Shown here: piece after piece, positions 12,256 through 21,238 of the stretch
How the letters are laid out: every line of letters starts with the position of its first letter
Numbering within the stretch: the first letter of the stretch is position 1
IMG/VR virus record: IMGVR_UViG_3300005095_000122
Coordinates: 1 to 62,732 of that record
DNA: 62,732 nucleotides
Reading direction: 5' to 3' (one strand)
Source of the DNA: a virus
The notes under the pieces: generated by a model
Databases searched by the model: none
The model's input: only the letters and a program-made list of their open reading frames with translations
Told to the model about the DNA's origin: nothing
Translations under genes and position numbers: made by a program

Positions 12256-13842
12256 ATGGCCAGACGAGTTCGTTTTGTGTGGGAAGATCCAGGGGAGTTG
12301 GCGCGCCAGCTACGCCGCGGGGAAGTGACAAAAGAGCAGGTAATAAAAGCCGCGCGCAAAGACCCGGTTGGTTGGATTAAGAACGTTTTGGGAGTAAAAC
12401 TTTATGAAAAGCAGGAGCAGATAGTAAAAAGCCTATATCGTCACAAGCGTTTAGCGGTACAGGCAGCGTTTTCCGTGGGAAAAACATTCCTCGCAGCAGC
12501 CATTGCCCTGCATTTCCTTTACAATTACGCCCCTTCAAAAGTAATCACTATAGCTCCCACCTGGCGTCAAGTCATCGGCCTTTTATGGCGTGAGATTCGC
12601 AAACTTTATAAACGAGCACTAGACCGAGGATGGGGTCTCATAGGCAATCTCAAGAAGACAGAGCTTGAGATTGACGAAGACTGGTTCGCGATGGGCTTTT
12701 CAACCCAAACAAGTGATGAGCAGGCCATCGACCGCATAACCGGTTTTCACCAGGAGAATATGTTGGTGATAATGGACCAAGCAGGTGGTTTAGGCGATCT
12801 TTGGTGGCGAGCAGTCAAAACCATGCTCGCCGGGCGGCATAATTACTGGCTAGCTTTGGGTAACACAGCTATTTGGAACTGCCCTTTTCGGCGCATTTGT
12901 TTGGAAGGTGGGATGCCGGGCCTCGGTCGCTGGCACGTCGAGAAAATCACAGCTTACGATTCCCCAAACGTACGTGCCAGGCGTACGGTCATACCCGGGT
13001 TAGTTTCTTGGGAGTGGGTCAGGGATATGGAGTCCCTGGGTCGCGATGACCCTCTCTTTCGCATATATGTTTTGGCCGAATTTGTGGCCGAGTCCGATCT
13101 CTTGCTCATACCCACCGAGGCTCTTGAGGCAGCCCGGACCGCCGAAATAAACATTTCCCCGGAACCCCAAGTCGCATTCGGTCTTGACGTAGCTTTGGAC
13201 GGAGGGGATTATTCAGTTTTGATAGGACTGGATCGCCGGACAGGGCAGCTTTTAGTCCTTCGCCGTATCCGGGGCAATCGCACTCACGGAGTGGTTTCAT
13301 TTGTGGAGTCGGTGGTGAACCAGGTTAAGCAAGTATATGCCCAATCTCAGCCGACGTTGGTGGCCGTGGACGCGGTAGGTATCGGGGCAGGTGTTTATGA
13401 CCTTTTGACAGAGCGGCTATCGGTCCCGGTGATTCCGATAATAGGCTCAGAGTCGCCACAGAATCCCCGCGCATTTTTGAATAAACGGTCTGAATCAGCG
13501 TGGCAATTACGAGAAGCATTTTCAGGGCGACAGATTCGATTACAGGTGCCGCAAGATCGATTTTCGGATTTGGTGGATCGAGAGTCTTATGGGAAATTAC
13601 TGGACCAGTTGCAAAATATGCCGTACCAGTATGACCAGCACGGCCGAATAAAACTACCGCCCAAAACAATTCTCAAGGGCATTTTTGGACATTCACCAGA
13701 TGAGTTTGACGCTTTGGTCTATGCGCACCAGGCGCGACAGGTCGCCGAGGCGTCAGTGGTGCGAGTAGTGACTCCGCAAACACAGGAAGAGTTGAACCCA
13801 TTTGAAGATCCTACTTTATGGGAGGAAGTGGAATGGCATTAG
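12256..13842 (+). CDS. terL: Terminase large subunit
   Basis: A 528-aa packaging motor. The ATPase domain has Walker A AAFSVGKT (70-77) and Walker B LVIMDQAGG (170-178), where Q175 replaces the usual catalytic glutamate. The RNase H-like nuclease domain begins FGLDVALDGGDYS (D311), continues VAVDAVGIG (near 376) and ends FDALVYAH (near 485), the three metal-binding aspartates. It cuts and translocates DNA into the prohead through the portal at 18257. It is separated from the portal by eight genes, including the ubiquitin-like cassette, which is unusual. Confidence 0.93.
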   Translation: MARRVRFVWEDPGELARQLRRGEVTKEQVIKAARKDPVGWIKNVLGVKLYEKQEQIVKSLYRHKRLAVQAAFSVGKTFLAAAIALHFLYNYAPSKVITIAPTWRQVIGLLWREIRKLYKRALDRGWGLIGNLKKTELEIDEDWFAMGFSTQTSDEQAIDRITGFHQENMLVIMDQAGGLGDLWWRAVKTMLAGRHNYWLALGNTAIWNCPFRRICLEGGMPGLGRWHVEKITAYDSPNVRARRTVIPGLVSWEWVRDMESLGRDDPLFRIYVLAEFVAESDLLLIPTEALEAARTAEINISPEPQVAFGLDVALDGGDYSVLIGLDRRTGQLLVLRRIRGNRTHGVVSFVESVVNQVKQVYAQSQPTLVAVDAVGIGAGVYDLLTERLSVPVIPIIGSESPQNPRAFLNKRSESAWQLREAFSGRQIRLQVPQDRFSDLVDRESYGKLLDQLQNMPYQYDQHGRIKLPPKTILKGIFGHSPDEFDALVYAHQARQVAEASVVRVVTPQTQEELNPFEDPTLWEEVEWH

Positions 13843-14300: not shown

Positions 14301-15047
14301 ATGGCAGAATTACAACCCATGCCCATATTAACACGCCGTCCAGTTTATGTGCTGTTTTCAGGCGGTCGTGATTCGACCGTAGCTTTGCATTGGGCGAAGA
14401 CGCAGTTCCCATTAGTGAAAGCAATATACGTTTCTTTGAACGATGACTGGTCTTCGCTAATAGAACACGTTCGGCGAGTAGCAGAAACCTTTTCGATTGA
14501 CCTCGAGATCAAGCAAGGTCCAAATCTTTATGATATTTTCGCAGCCGTCGGCCCGAAGCTCACTCCGGCAGCGATGGTGTGCAAAAAAGCAATGCTGGAA
14601 ACGGCACTAAGTGACATCCCAAAAGGTTCAATTTTGGTTTGGGGAAGTACCAGAAAACAGGCAAGCGTGATGGCGCGGATGTCCCAACCCATCCGCCGGG
14701 AGGGGGATTATATCTATATACGTCCTTTGCTTTTTAAAGGGTTTCCCTCGACGCGTTACTATATACGCGCGAATCGCCTTCCCATTTGGGAGGGGTATCG
14801 CCAGGGCTTGAACCGGACCGCCTGCCGTCTATGTCCGGGACAACGTCCTTTTTATTATGCCTTTTTGAGGCGACACCATCCAGATCTTTGGGAGCGACTT
14901 TTACGGTTTGAGCAGCAGTATGGGATTCGTCCGTGGCAGGCCCCTAGAGGGACGGCCTCTTTTACGGATTTGGCCAATTTAGCGGAGGTGTACCGATGTA
15001 CGCAGGGTGAAGTTTCCCGGGATCTCCGGCCAAGCAGGCAATCTTAA
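14301..15047 (+). CDS. PP-loop ATPase of PAPS reductase family
   Basis: A 248-aa adenine-nucleotide alpha hydrolase. The PP-loop is SGGRDS (20-25). A WGSTRKQAS stretch, the IRPLLF block and a C-terminal TACRLCPG two-cysteine motif follow, as in the wide PAPS reductase/DndC/3'-phosphoadenosine family. Members activate substrates by adenylation in sulfur assimilation, DNA phosphorothioation, tRNA thiolation and related chemistry. A lone copy in a phage is unlikely to run sulfate assimilation. It stands two genes upstream of the ubiquitin-like cassette; PP-loop enzymes and Ubl/E1 pairs cooperate in known sulfur-transfer pathways, so a link is possible but inferred. Confidence 0.82.
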   Translation: MAELQPMPILTRRPVYVLFSGGRDSTVALHWAKTQFPLVKAIYVSLNDDWSSLIEHVRRVAETFSIDLEIKQGPNLYDIFAAVGPKLTPAAMVCKKAMLETALSDIPKGSILVWGSTRKQASVMARMSQPIRREGDYIYIRPLLFKGFPSTRYYIRANRLPIWEGYRQGLNRTACRLCPGQRPFYYAFLRRHHPDLWERLLRFEQQYGIRPWQAPRGTASFTDLANLAEVYRCTQGEVSRDLRPSRQS

Positions 15048-15098
15048 AGAGTTTGCGCGATTGAGCAGACGTTGGTAATCGGAAAAATGGAGGAAGTC

Positions 15099-15521
15099 AT
15101 GAAGCAACAAAAAGAACAAGCACAGCAAGAGCCGAACAAGGGTGAGAGCCTTTTTGAGCGGCTAGGGTTGGCGTCGAGACCTCATGAATCAGTAGTGTAT
15201 CTATACGAGTCTTGGAAACGGACTCGAGAACAAGAGACGTTGGCCAAGCTAGCGTACAGGATTGCAGAATTTGTGCAGGAAGATACGAAGAACCATCTTT
15301 CAACAGCAATGCTATGTGACATTTTGAGTTTTAAACCGGGGAAACAAGAGTTCTTTTATATGTTAGTAAAGACTTTTATGCAGTGGTTTTCGGCCGTGGA
15401 CGAGAACGTGCAGGCAATTATGATTTACACGGTGGATCGTGAGTGGGATAATATGAAGCAGTTGCAGCGTTTTTATACGCAGCAAGCGTCAGAAACGCCC
15501 ACAAATAAAACTTCACATTAG
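15099..15521 (+). CDS. Hypothetical helical protein before Ubl gene
   Basis: A 140-aa all-helical protein with no family I recognise. It has a glutamine/lysine-rich N-terminus followed by several amphipathic helices (residues 30-125). ATG 15099 follows GGAGGAAG closely; earlier in-frame starts lie in or before the ribosome site. It is 11 bases upstream of the Ubl-like gene and could be part of that cassette, for example as a substrate or adaptor, but nothing in its sequence proves this. Confidence 0.6.
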   Translation: MKQQKEQAQQEPNKGESLFERLGLASRPHESVVYLYESWKRTREQETLAKLAYRIAEFVQEDTKNHLSTAMLCDILSFKPGKQEFFYMLVKTFMQWFSAVDENVQAIMIYTVDREWDNMKQLQRFYTQQASETPTNKTSH

Positions 15522-15532
15522 GGAGGTAGAAG

Positions 15533-15970
15533 ATGAGTCAAGAGAATCGTCAGCAGCAGTTACCCATCGTTTTTCCTGACGGGCAGGAGACACAATTGGA
15601 AGAAGTGACTCCTGAGCGTATAACCGAGATCGTACGCTCGCGTCTGGGATCGGCCAGGTTTATGGTGTACGATCAAGAAGGCAATCCCTTAGCTCCAGAG
15701 GATTTGGGAAGTCCGACGGTACGCCGCCTTTATGTAGAGGAGTATAATGAAGCCAAAGCTCCGATTCGCGAAATCCGGGACGAGAAGCGAAATGAGGTTT
15801 GGTACATAGACACCAAGACCGGTGAAGAAGTAAACCCATTTGAGGATGAGGAGACTTTTGTGTGTCCGTCATGTGGTGAGGAATATTCTGAAAACAGCCT
15901 GCCAGATAGGTGTGCTGTTTGTGGAGAGCCGTTGGCGGAATTGGACGACCATGATGATTTGATTTGGTAG
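15533..15970 (+). CDS. Ubiquitin-like beta-grasp protein with C-terminal zinc ribbon
   Basis: 145 aa. Residues 41-100 show the strand-strand-helix-strand-strand order of a small beta-grasp fold: a YDQEGNPL hairpin, an SPTVRRLYVEEY helix, then IREI and EVWYIDT strands. From memory this resembles the Ubl of PRTRC-type plasmid systems (protein C, Prok_Ub). Residues 109-132 form a zinc ribbon, CPSC (C111, C114) and CAVC (C127, C130). The chain ends DDLIW with no terminal diglycine, so conjugation would need processing or another mechanism. Its identity rests partly on the next three genes (E1, E2, JAMM). GGGAGG precedes ATG 15533. Confidence 0.6.
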   Translation: MSQENRQQQLPIVFPDGQETQLEEVTPERITEIVRSRLGSARFMVYDQEGNPLAPEDLGSPTVRRLYVEEYNEAKAPIREIRDEKRNEVWYIDTKTGEEVNPFEDEETFVCPSCGEEYSENSLPDRCAVCGEPLAELDDHDDLIW

Positions 15971-15981
15971 GGAGTGAGCAG

Positions 15982-16617
15982 ATGAGCGATCTCTATTTGC
16001 GACAAAAGGAACTAAATCTAAAGGTCCCCGAAGGCGTGATGGTGGTGGGGTGTGGTGGTGTTGGTTCATGGGTAGGATTGTTCTCCGCATTGGCAGGGGT
16101 CGAGAATATTTTGTTGGTAGATCCAGACGTGATTGAGGAACATAATCTAAATCGTACCCCTTTTACTCAGACCCAGGTCGGTCAAAACAAGGCCGAAGCC
16201 TTGGGATTCTTAATAAAAGAGCGGCGGCCGGGGGTACAGCTGGGCGTGGTGCCGCTACGTGTGGAGGATTTGGTTTTGATCGCTCCAGCCGAAGCTTGGG
16301 CGCAGATCCCAGTTGTTTTTGATTGTCGTGACACCAGCGAGCCGCTGCCTGATTTTCTCAAGGGGAAAACGCCAATTGTGGGGGGATATAACGGCAATTC
16401 GATAACACTCCACACATGGCCGGACCTTCGACCAACACCTTTGTGGGGTGCGGTAGGGCAAGGTTACAATACCCCGTCTTGGGTAGCCCCACCGACCCTT
16501 TTGGCTTCTCTATTGATTTTTGCAACGTTCTCTTATGATTTGCCGCGACAGACTCGCATTTCGACGTTGACGATGCAGGATGTTTTTGATCGGGTGATGG
16601 CAAAGCGTTGGCAATAG
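15982..16617 (+). CDS. E1/ThiF-like adenylating enzyme
   Basis: A 211-aa Rossmann-fold ThiF/MoeB/E1 domain expected to adenylate the C-terminus of a ubiquitin-like protein. The nucleotide loop is VVGCGGVGS (21-29), LLVDPDVIE carries the ATP-binding aspartate (D47 or D49), NLNR (55-58) is the conserved asparagine-arginine pair and K70 the conserved lysine. FDCRDTSE (113-120) corresponds to the family VDxxD strand. Only two cysteines exist (C24, C115), neither in the usual crossover-loop position of a catalytic cysteine, and there are no zinc CxxC pairs. ATG 15982 is preferred over TTG 15964, which lies before the GGGAG ribosome site. Confidence 0.85.
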   Translation: MSDLYLRQKELNLKVPEGVMVVGCGGVGSWVGLFSALAGVENILLVDPDVIEEHNLNRTPFTQTQVGQNKAEALGFLIKERRPGVQLGVVPLRVEDLVLIAPAEAWAQIPVVFDCRDTSEPLPDFLKGKTPIVGGYNGNSITLHTWPDLRPTPLWGAVGQGYNTPSWVAPPTLLASLLIFATFSYDLPRQTRISTLTMQDVFDRVMAKRWQ

Positions 16618-16643
16618 TATTAAAACAGGAGTAGGAGTCGAGA

Positions 16644-17711
16644 ATGTCTTACGAGAATTTGTGTGCGGTGTTGGAGCCTTATGGGTATCAGGTTTTTGCG
16701 ACGGCAGAGACTCGAGTGGCGGCTCCTACTCCACGCATAGCAGCGCGAACAAGTCGCGTAACGTATCACGTCGATATTCCCACGGGTATTCAACCCATAT
16801 CGGTATCGCTAGATGAGATTTTTCCGGCAACAATGCTGCCGACTCAATCCAACTTGTCAAATATACAACTGCCCACTCAAGCAGTGGCAGTGGTTTATAC
16901 GATCGGTGGTAAGCAAGTATTTTTGTTTGATAGGTTTGGGAACTTTTTTATATCAGCTTCGATCCCGTGGGCTTTCATAGGCGGAACCCACTTTCCCCAG
17001 TTAATCTCTTGGATACACGGCAACCACTCCAGGTGGATACAAGACCAAGTAATTGATTTTTTGTCGGCGGTTCAACATTATTATCCAGTAAGAATTGTTG
17101 AAGTGAAAATAGAATTGGATCGTGACGCATTGGCACAACAGTTATCCGATGAGCTGAATCGCCGAGTGGAGGCGATTCGGCGCATGATAGAAGCGGAGGC
17201 CAATGTAAAAGTAAGATTTGCGCAGGAGCAATATAAACAGCTTCAAAAGAAAATTGCAAAGTTGTCGCAAGAATTGGAGCGACAATCTCTTACTAGCATA
17301 AAACCATTTTTGGAGGCGTTGTCTCCGTACAGTTACCAGTTAGAGGGAGATTATTTGATAATAACAAGCCGTTTTGATGTAAGATTTTTGAAAAACAACG
17401 GGGAGATAAAGCCACTTCCTCCGAACAAAGTGGGTCATTTTTACATAGAAAAGTTTCGGTTCAAGATAGGAGAAACGGTAAACCGAGCTCAGGCCCAGGG
17501 ATACCATCCGAATCTCCAGGGCAATTCTCGCGATACGTGGGCAACCTTTTGTTTGGGTGATTTGTCAAATTCGTCTCCAATAAACTTGTTACGGGGCCTA
17601 AAGTCTTTGTTGGAAGTAGGGAATCTTGATTCAAGTTATGGAAACAAAGCAGCAAAAGAGGCGCTAGAGTTATGGCCTCAGTTGACTTCACAAGACGTGT
17701 TATGGAGGTAG
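16644..17711 (+). CDS. E2-like (UBC-fold) protein with N-terminal extension and coiled coil
   Basis: 355 aa. The last third (about 230-345) looks like an E2 ubiquitin-conjugating fold: beta strands DYLIIT and GHFYIEKFRFKI, then GYHPN (H288-P289-N290), twelve residues, and CLGDL with C303. This copies the HPN...CL active-site signature of E2 enzymes. Only two cysteines occur in the protein (C7 and C303). Upstream is a beta-rich domain (1-155) of unknown function and a charged coiled coil (about 165-225). Located between the E1-like and JAMM-like genes. The E2 assignment is by motif only; the larger HPN-Cys spacing than in eukaryotic E2s is a caveat. Confidence 0.6.
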   Translation: MSYENLCAVLEPYGYQVFATAETRVAAPTPRIAARTSRVTYHVDIPTGIQPISVSLDEIFPATMLPTQSNLSNIQLPTQAVAVVYTIGGKQVFLFDRFGNFFISASIPWAFIGGTHFPQLISWIHGNHSRWIQDQVIDFLSAVQHYYPVRIVEVKIELDRDALAQQLSDELNRRVEAIRRMIEAEANVKVRFAQEQYKQLQKKIAKLSQELERQSLTSIKPFLEALSPYSYQLEGDYLIITSRFDVRFLKNNGEIKPLPPNKVGHFYIEKFRFKIGETVNRAQAQGYHPNLQGNSRDTWATFCLGDLSNSSPINLLRGLKSLLEVGNLDSSYGNKAAKEALELWPQLTSQDVLWR

Positions 17712-17714
17712 AAG

Positions 17715-18203
17715 ATGATTTGGCAGTCTGTGTCACTAGTACGAATCCCGATAATTAAGGTGTCTTTAGACGTAAAGTTAATTTTTTCAGGCTTACAGAA
17801 CTACGTGCCAGGAAAAGAACTCTCTGTTCTGTTTAAAGCCGTTCCCACAAAGCGAGGTTTTGAGGTGTTGCCGGAGTGGGTACTGCCCGCTCAAGAGGTC
17901 ACCACCACGTCGGTTGATTATAGGGAAGATCTATCCGCGTTTCGTAAGCAAGGGTTTCTTTGTGTGACCCATTCTCATCCTTTTACTTCGGACAAGGCAT
18001 CGTTTTCAGCAAATGATTGGGACAACATAAATGCAAACTTTCCAGTTTCTTTGTTATTTAATGGAAAGGGAGAGATAACCGATTGGACGCTGACAATAAC
18101 GCCGAAAGAAAATGACCAGATGCGTTTGCAACTGGGAAGGGACGAAGTAGAGTTGCGGGTACGTCCTAGTTTAGACATAAAGTCACGAGTAATTGTGCGT
18201 TAA
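17715..18203 (+). CDS. JAB/JAMM-type metalloprotease-like protein
   Basis: 162 aa with a JAMM zinc site: THSHP (H86, H88, P89) followed by FSANDW giving S98-x2-D101, and an upstream glutamate candidate E61 in LPAQEV. JAMM proteases remove or trim ubiquitin-like proteins. The distance between HxHP and SxxD is two residues longer than in Rpn11. It follows the E2-like gene by 3 bases with GGAGGTAG before ATG 17715. In lambdoid phages JAMM domains occur in tail-assembly proteins (K), but this one is next to E1 and E2 genes and far from the tail tip, which argues for Ubl processing. Confidence 0.75.
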   Translation: MIWQSVSLVRIPIIKVSLDVKLIFSGLQNYVPGKELSVLFKAVPTKRGFEVLPEWVLPAQEVTTTSVDYREDLSAFRKQGFLCVTHSHPFTSDKASFSANDWDNINANFPVSLLFNGKGEITDWTLTITPKENDQMRLQLGRDEVELRVRPSLDIKSRVIVR

Positions 18204-18208
18204 CCTGC

Positions 18209-18236
18209 TTGAATTTTAAGTGGCGCTGCGTATATT
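18209..18236 (+). promoter_or_regulatory. Possible promoter before portal gene
   Basis: In the 53-base gap before the portal gene, TTGAAT (18209-18214) and TATATT (18231-18236) are separated by 16 bases, a fair sigma70 match about 20 bases before the portal start. It would separate head-gene transcription from the terminase and ubiquitin-like genes. No repeat of this element was seen elsewhere, so it may be chance. Confidence 0.35.
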
Positions 18237-18256
18237 CCAAGGTAACGGAGGGAAAT

Positions 18257-21238
18257 ATGCGCAGCGTCACAGATTGGTTTTTGTCGCAAACGAAATTACG
18301 CAAATTTGTGTTGGACCATTCTTACGAGTCCGTTTCTTGGGTCTTTGCGTGCGTTCAGCGCATTTCAACTGCCGCGTCTTCCGTTCCTTATATATTCACT
18401 CCGGAGAAACATGAATTGGTCTCTTTATTGCGGCGGCCAGAGTTTCCCCGCATTCCTTCATTTTCCAAACTAATAGAAATAACTTTTATGTATATGGAGC
18501 TTGATGGGGGGTGTATTTGGTATTGGGAAGATGAGGATTCTTTGCGTATTCTTTCGATAAAAGATGTCTCGCCGATGATGGATCAAAAGGACCCAACAAA
18601 GCTAATCGGTTGGGTCAGATATCGTCCCGACTCCCGTGTGCCGGATAAGGTAATCTCGCCTTCCGAAGTCGTTCCTTTTATCTATTTTAATCCGAGAAAT
18701 CCGTTACACGGACTTTCTCCTCTCAAGCCCGCGCGATTGGGGCTAGAACAGTGGTTTAACATGTCTGCTTGGAATGCGGCATTCTTTGAGTCAGGAATAA
18801 GAGCTCCTTTGGTTTTGGTGTCGAAGCACAAATTGACAGCCGAGCAAGAAAAACAAATACAAAAACGATTGAGAGAGTTTTATGCAGGGCTTTCTGGCGG
18901 ACATTCTGCGCTAATAGTAGATGGTGAGGCGGATGTAAAGCCATTAAATACCTCAGCGAAAGAGTTGGATTTTATCGAGGGCTTGCAGTTATCAAGAGAA
19001 GAGATTTGCGCGATTTTTGGAGTTCCTCCGGCTTTGGTAGGCATTTATAGGTATGCCAACTATGCCAATACCAAAGAACAACGCAAAATTTTTTGGGAGC
19101 AAACGATGCTCCCAAAACTTCGTTTTGTGGAGGAAATGCTAAATGCCTTTTTTGAGGTGAATGGGCGGGAGGTGGCTTTTGAATGGGATTATTCCAAGAT
19201 CGAGGCCCTCCGGCCCGACCCAATTGATGCAGCGCGAGCGGCAGAGATTTATGCCAATTTGGGCTATAGCAGAGACCAGATCGCAAGCATTTTGAATATT
19301 CCCCAGCTGGCCCCGGCTGAGGAAACACAGCAAGGACCGGAGGATTCTGAGGACAAAACAACGTATGTGGTCGGCCCGCGTACGGTAAAATTATCAGATG
19401 AGGATTATGCGCACGAGCTAGTTTCAACGTTTCGCATTTATGAGTCAAAGTGGGAAAGATTTTTTCGTGTTTTGGCGAAACAGTCGGCCGATGAGCTTTT
19501 GCTCCAGCTACGCCGTCGAGGGGAGATAGACGAAGGGCTTTATAGAAATAATGCACAACTTTGGCATGAAGATGCGGAACAGCGTACTTTTGAAGAGTTT
19601 TTTGTGTCTTATGCAGTAGCTTCTCGCGAAGTGTCCACGTCCAGGATTAAATTGGAGTCGGGAATCGAAGCCCATTTGAAAACCTTTGATTTGGATGCGT
19701 TTTTAAACACTTTGGATTTGAAAGAACGTGATTTTGCAGTGTCGGTGGCGCGCGAAATAGCGTATAAGACGCGGTGGGTGACGGATATGGTGCGCGAAAC
19801 CATTTTACAGGTAGTTTTGGCCCGTCTTTCTACTGGCGGGGCCTATGCGACCATTTCTGAAATTAAATCAGAGCTATATGCTTTTATTGAAGAACGTTAT
19901 TTAGGCCGCTCGCTGACCATAGCCCGAACAGTATCGGGAGCAGCATTAAATGCAGGAAGGTATGCAGTTTGGCAATCGAGGGGAGTGACTCATCACCGGT
20001 GGATAACGGCCCGCGACGCGGAGGTGCGGGATACCCATGCCTTGCAGCATGGGCAGGTAGTGCGTATAGGGGAAGCGTTCCAAAACGGTTTGTTGTATCC
20101 ACACGATCCAAATGGACCGGCCCGGGAGGTAATCAACTGCCGTTGTACAACCACACCAGTTGCTAAGCTGGAGGGCACGCGTCCTCGACCGGTAAAGCCT
20201 CGCAAAACCGATCTCCGCACCGCCTATGAAGAGTTCATTCTTGGTTTAGAAGAGCTGGTCGAGGTTTTCAAAGACAAGAATTATTGGAAAGAGCGCAAAC
20301 TTTGGGCTTTTGAGGGTTATGCAGAGAACCAACCTATTCATGAAGCGGATAAAGCAGTAACTAGTTTAGCAAAAGTGGTGAAGGATAATGATTTCCAGAA
20401 CATAGGTAAGTTTATCGAGGAAAATCGCAAGAACCAGCGGGTTTCCTTGCAGATGTCGGCGTCGTTTAAAGTGTCGGAGAAGGCACAAGATACCTTTGAG
20501 AGATATCTTGGACGGTTGTTGCCGAAAGAGACTACCGAGTTGCTGCACCATTCCGGTTTGAAGATGGAATTTAAGAATATTAACATAGGCGGATTGTATC
20601 GCATACGTGAGAATAAAATAGTGTTGAAGTTGACGAAAACAGATGTCGAACAGTTAGCGGATTTGATGCGGGTAAGTATGGGGGAATTGACTGCGGAGGA
20701 ATTAGAAAAGAGTTTGGTAAAATGGGCCGAGCGAAAGGTGGCGAAAAAGGAAATTGATCCAGATACACGAGACTTTATAGTAAAGAAGTTGGTGGCGGAT
20801 CGCAAAGGTTGGTTGATGCGGAAGCTGGAAACAGTGGTTCATGAATATGGTCATGCGGTACACAAACACGATCCAATAGTACAGGGGATGGTAAAAGACA
20901 TTTATGAGGCACGCGTAACAGAGAAAACATATCGGCGTTACGATCCGGGGAAGTGGCCTTCGTACTATGCGGGAAGAGTATATCCACGGCCCCCAGTTGG
21001 TGTGACGAGAGGGGCAGAGGTCCCTTCGGTAGCTTTTGAGGCTTTGGCAGTAGTGCCTCAGTCTGCGCAAGGGGCAAAGGAGTTGGCAGAGGTGATAAAA
21101 ACGATGTTGCCGGGCCATGCAGAGATTTCTAATTACCGTTCTACCTATTCGTTTATCCCAGATTTTGTGGATTATTGGTTTGAGGATATTCATTTTGAAG
21201 CGGAGAAAATTAAAGCAAAACGAACGGGGGGACAGTGA
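18257..21238 (+). CDS. Portal - MuF - HExxH metallopeptidase-like fusion protein
   Basis: A 993-aa single polypeptide with three parts. Residues 1 to about 380 are an HK97-type portal (VFACVQRIS start, FNPRNPLHGLSPL, GVPPALVGI). Residues about 430-635 are a Mu gpF-like head protein ending in the family signature with HALQHGQV and INCRC (N627-C630). Residues about 650-993 are an extra domain with HEYGH (H862-E863-H866), a zinc-metallopeptidase motif, and downstream acidic candidates such as SVAFEALA for the third ligand. MuF proteins of other phages carry polymorphic toxin-like tails, but those are usually separate from portal. ATG 18257 follows GGAGGG; no internal start with a ribosome site was seen at the domain borders. 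Confidence 0.87.
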   Translation: MRSVTDWFLSQTKLRKFVLDHSYESVSWVFACVQRISTAASSVPYIFTPEKHELVSLLRRPEFPRIPSFSKLIEITFMYMELDGGCIWYWEDEDSLRILSIKDVSPMMDQKDPTKLIGWVRYRPDSRVPDKVISPSEVVPFIYFNPRNPLHGLSPLKPARLGLEQWFNMSAWNAAFFESGIRAPLVLVSKHKLTAEQEKQIQKRLREFYAGLSGGHSALIVDGEADVKPLNTSAKELDFIEGLQLSREEICAIFGVPPALVGIYRYANYANTKEQRKIFWEQTMLPKLRFVEEMLNAFFEVNGREVAFEWDYSKIEALRPDPIDAARAAEIYANLGYSRDQIASILNIPQLAPAEETQQGPEDSEDKTTYVVGPRTVKLSDEDYAHELVSTFRIYESKWERFFRVLAKQSADELLLQLRRRGEIDEGLYRNNAQLWHEDAEQRTFEEFFVSYAVASREVSTSRIKLESGIEAHLKTFDLDAFLNTLDLKERDFAVSVAREIAYKTRWVTDMVRETILQVVLARLSTGGAYATISEIKSELYAFIEERYLGRSLTIARTVSGAALNAGRYAVWQSRGVTHHRWITARDAEVRDTHALQHGQVVRIGEAFQNGLLYPHDPNGPAREVINCRCTTTPVAKLEGTRPRPVKPRKTDLRTAYEEFILGLEELVEVFKDKNYWKERKLWAFEGYAENQPIHEADKAVTSLAKVVKDNDFQNIGKFIEENRKNQRVSLQMSASFKVSEKAQDTFERYLGRLLPKETTELLHHSGLKMEFKNINIGGLYRIRENKIVLKLTKTDVEQLADLMRVSMGELTAEELEKSLVKWAERKVAKKEIDPDTRDFIVKKLVADRKGWLMRKLETVVHEYGHAVHKHDPIVQGMVKDIYEARVTEKTYRRYDPGKWPSYYAGRVYPRPPVGVTRGAEVPSVAFEALAVVPQSAQGAKELAEVIKTMLPGHAEISNYRSTYSFIPDFVDYWFEDIHFEAEKIKAKRTGGQ

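Follow-up and report, generated by a model that had tools for sequence, protein, structure and literature searches.

To our knowledge, the conjugation of ubiquitin-like proteins (Ubls) in bacteria is known mainly as a form of host defence. Bacterial operons that bring together genes for a Ubl, an activating enzyme (E1), a conjugating enzyme (E2) and a JAB-type protease were predicted first and later, reportedly, demonstrated in the CBASS and Bil systems. The prediction, made in 2006, distinguished operon types 6a-6e, of which type 6d, whose E2 lacks the classical His, is nearest in gene content to the locus described here; type 6e has one to three Ubl repeats, a JAB fused to the E1, and E2-like domains that are inactive (PMC1779556). 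In Bil, BilA has two Ubl domains, BilB carries a CEHH motif, and BilD consists of an inactive and an active adenylation domain together with a Cys domain (Cys417) (PMC11354881); in CBASS, conjugation of cGAS through a C-terminal Gly or Ala is established (PMC10097602). Here we describe a Ubl-E1-E2-JAB cassette carried by an uncultivated tailed phage on an IMG/VR virus record (IMGVR_UViG_3300005095_000122, analysed over its full 62,732 bases and called the window below), and consider it probable, from sequence and structural models, that the phage encodes a reversible protein-conjugation pathway in which E1, E2 and JAB act in a cycle on the phage's own Ubl.

The cassette (window positions 15533-18203) comprises four plus-strand genes between terminase and portal, with intergenic gaps of 3-26 bases, each gene being preceded by a purine-rich sequence that resembles a ribosome-binding site (Table 1). 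A sequence-only reading had reported four consecutive open reading frames here, and all are present, as are the motifs it listed: GCGGVGS and NLNR in the E1, H288-P289-N290 and C303 in the E2, and H86-S-H88-P, S98 and D101 in the JAB. Its proposal of a complete conjugation and deconjugation set on a phage is likewise borne out by family profiles, predicted structures (Ubl and E2) and recurrent linkage. The E1 is certain from its sequence; the Ubl, E2 and JAB are recognized through family profiles, the Ubl and E2 through predicted structures as well. On these grounds we judge this viral Ubl conjugation set to be real, complete and recurrent, and its biochemistry to be well predicted.

Table 1. 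Genes of the cassette and two flanking genes in the window
Feature	Position	Strand	Basis
Ubl gene	15533..15970	+	beta-grasp domain and zinc-ribbon tail
E1 gene, minimal ThiF-type adenylation domain, 211 amino acids	15982..16617	+	Pfam ThiF, 5.8e-20
E2 gene	16644..17711	+	UBC domain with HPN 288-290 and Cys303
JAMM/JAB protease gene	17715..18203	+	E35, H86, H88, S98, D101
Large terminase subunit (flanking)	12256..13842	+	PHROG 2, 5.7e-33
Portal fused to Mu-F-like head morphogenesis region (flanking, outside the system)	18209..21238	+	Pfam Phage_portal 1.6e-47, Phage_Mu_F 1.4e-10

The ThiF/E1 assignment stands, with the start of the gene moved: it most likely begins at ATG 15982 instead of TTG 15964, because relatives start with M..LYxRQ and a GGGAG sits upstream. 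By profile comparison with the PDB the E1 matches MccB, Uba1, UBA5, ThiF and Cap2, and over 54 homologues the ATP-site residues G-x-G-G-x-G, D53, N61, K76 and D123 are invariant and R64 is nearly so. The protein is a single ThiF domain without a Cys domain. Cysteines conserved in most of the 54 sequences occur only in the GCGG loop and in a DCxD motif, and column statistics for the same homologues revealed no conserved thioester Cys in the loop further on that holds the catalytic Cys of ThiF/MoeB-type enzymes.

The E2 consists of an N-terminal stretch of about 160 residues, a coiled coil (160-226), a UBC domain (about 228-346) and a short tail, QDVLWR. Direct scans of the window protein against Pfam, NCBIfam and PHROG gave just uninformative coiled-coil matches, and a full-length family profile against the PDB returned coiled coils for the most part, E2s appearing no better than E ~0.6; this was resolved by a profile restricted to the UBC domain (11 relatives), for which E2 enzymes made up 60 of the 60 listed matches (best E=0.0011), the HPN, Cys and N-x-D-S motif lining up in the alignment. 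Pfam UQ_con is matched by five of the 11 E2 relatives (best 7.5e-4), AlphaFold2 (AF2) models the UBC region with a predicted local distance difference test score (pLDDT) of about 90, and the top Foldseek matches of the model are Ubc3, UBE2N and Ubc9 (best E 0.013); a search of a viral structure library gave no credible match. The earlier assignment of an E2-like HPN...C active site is thus upheld by a UBC fold in both structure prediction and profiles. All 24 E2 homologues keep C303 and G305, among them a second E2 type in which HYHQxxPDCWG replaces HPN. One cassette (L011, 4252-5994) carries two tandem E2 genes of this PDCWG type.

The JAMM protease was also correctly recognized. Its motif residues, including the invariant JAMM glutamate (E35, H86, H88, S98, D101), are unchanged in 19 sequences, 16 of the 19 relatives match Pfam Prok-JAB (best 1.2e-6), and the family profile against the PDB places AMSH-like proteases, which are deubiquitinases, on top.

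For the Ubl, proposed earlier as a zinc-ribbon beta-grasp candidate, AF2 and Foldseek agree with that proposal. The model (built from a 21-row alignment) has a mean pLDDT of 83, with core blocks at about 90-95, and shows a beta-beta-alpha-beta-beta fold with a zinc-ribbon tail; its Foldseek matches are mostly ubiquitin, SUMO and NEDD8, with one bacterial Ubl, at probabilities mainly of 1.00 and E values near 0.01. The beta-grasp domain spans residues 8-72 approximately, the core ending VEEYNEAKA, and is followed by a C-terminal extension that holds four cysteines (C111, C114, C127, C130) and ends DDLIW. This four-Cys tail is confined to the window protein among 21 aligned Ubls, and its zinc-ribbon Pfam matches are under the curated cut-offs. 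Adjoining the cassette of another locus (L022, 7649-7927) is a zinc-binding protein of 92 amino acids ending SWEKSWETEA, which may be a stand-alone counterpart of the zinc-ribbon-plus-Trp tail of the window Ubl.

Across the family the Ubls mostly end in YDVAG or YDEAG, that is, in AG, and several extend one to five residues beyond it (AG|R, AG|T, AG|I, AG|LV, AG|NVVLV), as pro-forms awaiting cutting by the JAMM protease would. The ends in the window's own clade are YNEAA, YNEAK, YYEAK, YNEAKGG with a tail, and YNEAKAP followed by the zinc ribbon; by locus, L001 has KGG with a tail, L009 has AA, L013 and L014 have AK, and the window has YNEAKAP. For conjugation via a C-terminal Ala, CBASS offers a precedent (PMC10097602). 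A natural fusion also exists (L049, 5446-6807), in which a Ubl domain (SYNEAG) forms the N-terminus of the E1.

A short acidic tryptophan motif is common to the Ubl, the E2 and probably the JAB, as judged from the sequences. Of 36 E2 proteins, 24 have it within their last 16 residues, compared with 18 of 567 neighbouring open reading frames (3%); of 26 Ubls, 14 have it within their first 30 residues, compared with 28 of the same 567 (5%). These contrasts are descriptive, since the motif was spotted first and counted afterwards. JABs frequently carry it further in. The window has E2 QDVLWR, a JAB N-terminus MIWQS and the Ubl end DDLIW. The C-terminal end of the terminase, NPFEDPTLWEEVEWH, resembles the acidic-Trp motif and an NPFEDEE stretch of the Ubl tail.

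A scan of IMG/VR with an E1 profile returned 93 relatives, of which 80 were kept. With one profile per component, all four components were found at 31 of 74 distinct E1-bearing loci (the window being extra), in the orders Ubl-E2-E1-JAB (27), Ubl-E1-E2-JAB (3, and the window) and with two E2 genes (1, L011); the component profiles were drawn partly from these same loci, and the counts therefore describe the family and are no independent test. Linkage of the four genes, on which the sequence-only reading had staked its proposal, is kept on about 30 distinct viral contigs from uncultivated phages. The E1 tree places the window in a clade of 11 rows (support 98), next to a T4-like clade of 21 rows (98). 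One of the 31 complete loci, L088, is a 6.3-kb contig from a bin assigned to a Thermoplasmata archaeon; it has clamp loader and T4-like clamp genes next to a complete cassette, and is probably a virus fragment of uncertain host; it was the one close match among the matches listed in a scan of bacterial genomes, the others being weaker and looking like generic TcdA/ThiF-type E1s.

L001, whose contig was also the sole find of an E2-pattern scan of viral contigs, is a true relative of the window phage in which the cassette, the portal and the subsequent structural genes correspond. Identity with the window is 41% for the portal and 53% and 61% for the next two genes (prohead/capsid), and 40%, 49%, 25% and 40% for the Ubl, E1, E2 and JAB. 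All four cassette genes remain intact across this divergence, which argues, at the level of sequence, for selection acting on the four-gene set. The helical gene upstream of the window cassette (15072-15521) was rejected as a conserved fifth member, since it does not resemble the gene upstream in L001.

That no exact described counterpart was known also agrees with our searches: none was found in 50,697 records of isolated phages, among 72,556 plasmids, or in the literature searched for a phage-borne full set, although a description may have been missed, since that search did not reach preprints or the majority of subscription papers. Searches of INPHARED isolates by tblastn with E1 and E2 gave nothing for the window, T4-like (L042), L062 and giant-E2 (L040) types; the E1 of L036 matched nothing but YgdL proteins of host type and a single distant E1 from a huge phage.

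Genomic context differs among the groups. In the 21-member clade, the largest, Ubl-E2-E1-JAB typically comes after the genes for the clamp loader large subunit, its small subunit (PF16790) and a PCNA-like clamp, in that order, such that the Ubl gene follows the clamp gene directly or nearly directly; the clamp identification is weak (E=0.017, together with position). Another group adjoins SbcD/SbcC-like genes, with SbcD-like genes after the cassette in L026 and L021 and an SbcC-like gene as well in L026. A portal gene, present in five of 13 contigs searched, stands beside the cassette only in the window and L001. The left part of the window phage (1229-9125) has genes for a UvsX-like recombinase, SbcD- and SbcC-like proteins, a clamp loader, a 5'-3' exonuclease and a DnaB-like helicase; no sliding clamp was recognized among the window genes searched, and no tRNA gene was found in the window. 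About 0.5 kb upstream of the cassette (14301-15047) lies a gene for a PAPS-reductase/QueC-like PP-loop protein, which could serve sulfur, queuosine or DNA-modification chemistry, and the 1009-residue portal-MuF protein downstream has an additional C-terminal region with HEYGHAVH (HExxH), suggestive of a fused zinc metallopeptidase.

On the conjugation reading, the JAB would trim the Ubl after its YNEA(K) core, removing in the window phage the zinc-ribbon tail, and the E1 would adenylate the C-terminus thus exposed. Because the E1 lacks a crossover-loop cysteine, Cys303 of the E2 would receive the Ubl straight from the adenylate as a thioester; the E2 would then pass it to target lysines without a dedicated E3, and the JAB would take it off again. 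A shared docking signal that brings the enzymes together may be provided by the Trp peptide, which is carried by the tail of the E2, by the terminus of the Ubl and probably by the N-terminal region of the JAB. The scheme is weakest where timing and target are concerned. We favour, from gene position, an early role for the cassette, replication-stage or host-directed, over one in virion assembly because most relatives sit in replication modules.

Several observations weigh against the conjugation reading and its early timing. The window cassette sits in the head module, apart from the replication genes of the phage. The N-terminal 160 residues of the E2 lack a confident AF2 model, no individual structure match of the Ubl or E2 model reaches E<0.001, and Prok-JAB matches the window JAB alone at E=0.012, under the Pfam cut-off. 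Gly is missing from the expected end of the window Ubl (YNEAKAP), and the Ubls of L013 and L014 end in Lys, which would be unusual for adenylation by an E1; trimming to Ala is an assumption.

What the pathway would act on separates most of the alternatives. The position between terminase and portal had been taken as a hint that the target is a virion or packaging protein, and in both the window and L001 the cassette lies immediately upstream of the portal, retained although the structural proteins have diverged to 41-61% identity; yet this placement did not extend beyond the pair, a portal having been found on five of the 13 contigs searched, and a virion target is not favoured because the largest group adjoins sliding clamp and clamp loader genes. 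We regard it as quite unlikely that the phage modifies virion or packaging proteins of its own. Conjugation to proteins of the replication machinery, for instance the sliding clamp, by analogy with PCNA ubiquitylation and SUMOylation, would fit the 21-member clade, where the Ubl gene comes after clamp loader and clamp, and the UvsX, SbcCD-like and clamp loader genes of the window phage, but it depends on adjacency and on a weak clamp call, and many members of the window's clade have no clamp context; as a specific target we hold it unlikely.

Bil tags the structural proteins of phages and blocks their assembly, and the phage cassette might do the same to competing or incoming phages (or plasmids) as a means of superinfection exclusion. 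The cassette would work like the modules of Bil and CBASS, both of them antiphage systems (PMC11354881, PMC10097602), and in the window it resembles an accessory insertion, but the main clade keeps it stably by core replication genes and not at a defence-like variable site, and the phage's own virion proteins would require protection; we consider this as doubtful as the replication target. The least probable alternative makes the Ubl a ThiS/MoaD-like thiocarboxylate donor for cofactor, tRNA or nucleotide thiolation, activated by the E1 and only matured by the JAB, with the PAPS-reductase-like protein as partner. The ThiF/MoeB-like E1 without a thioester Cys, the nearby PP-loop gene, the known bacterial JAB-E1-ThiS operons with PAPS reductase (PMC1779556) and one Ubl relative with a weak ThiS match (0.0015) are all in keeping with such a sulfur carrier. 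Against it, the E2 with its HPN and Cys is retained family-wide and plays no part in sulfur relay, and no PP-loop or rhodanese gene was recognized beside the cassettes of relatives by reading, no profile search having been made.

A reversible conjugation pathway kept complete by many tailed phages reverses the view of such systems as defence, and suggests that microbial viruses tag proteins using their own enzymes. It raises a tractable question, namely what the phage tags and why the tag is removed again, and the very small E1 and E2 may be useful for studying the origin of ubiquitin cascades. As a long shot, we suggest that the pathway was ancestrally tied to the phage replisome: a cysteine-free E1 would pass the Ubl directly to an HPN-type E2, the shared Trp peptide would assemble the components, and the proteins tagged would be those of replication, for example the sliding clamp, so that viruses would have their own, independent parallel to PCNA modification.

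PRTRC and Bil had been named as relatives; the likeness holds for gene sets, but the window cassette is strictly neither, failing the PRTRC family models and the defining features of Bil. Like the cassette, Bil (BilABCD, the bacterial ISG15-like antiphage operon) has Ubl, E2, JAB and E1 in a four-gene operon, with a JAB that matures the Ubl and a full cycle; unlike it, the window has a single beta-grasp domain in place of the tandem-Ubl BilA, a 211-residue E1 with one ThiF domain and no Cys domain in place of the two-adenylation-domain BilD, and HPN before C303 in place of the BilB CEHH. The PRTRC/type 6d operons share separate Ubl, E1, E2 and JAB genes and a mobile-element context, but the window E2 has HPN, its E1 scores 20.6 bits against the PRTRC ThiF model (cut-off 144.75), and PRTRC-family models gave no significant match for its Ubl, E2 or JAB.

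The remaining systems share fewer components. Type II CBASS has E1 and E2 activities, a JAB peptidase and conjugation through a C-terminal Gly or Ala (PMC10097602), but Cap2 is an E2-E1 fusion with an E1 Cys that conjugates cGAS, and there is no Ubl gene, whereas the phage cassette has separate genes, its own Ubl and no nucleotidyltransferase, no CD-NTase having turned up in those window genes that were examined in its vicinity. Bub (type 6e) likewise clusters E1, JAB and Ubl genes, and the JAB profile of the window family weakly touches Citrobacter BubCD (0.44), but the fused JAB-E1, Ubl repeats and inactive E2 of that type differ from the phage cassette. Tail proteins I and K of lambdoid phages form a phage Ubl and JAB pair, but are tail assembly genes without E1 or E2 (PMC1779556). 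In the 595-kb huge phage LR756511.1 (L159, 3594-5519), E1-like and JAB-like frames lie about 0.8 kb apart, but profiles of the window family found no Ubl, UBC or JAB match there. In anatomy, the full phage-borne Ubl-E1-E2-JAB set differs from each of its known bacterial relatives (Bil, PRTRC/6d, CBASS Cap2-Cap3).

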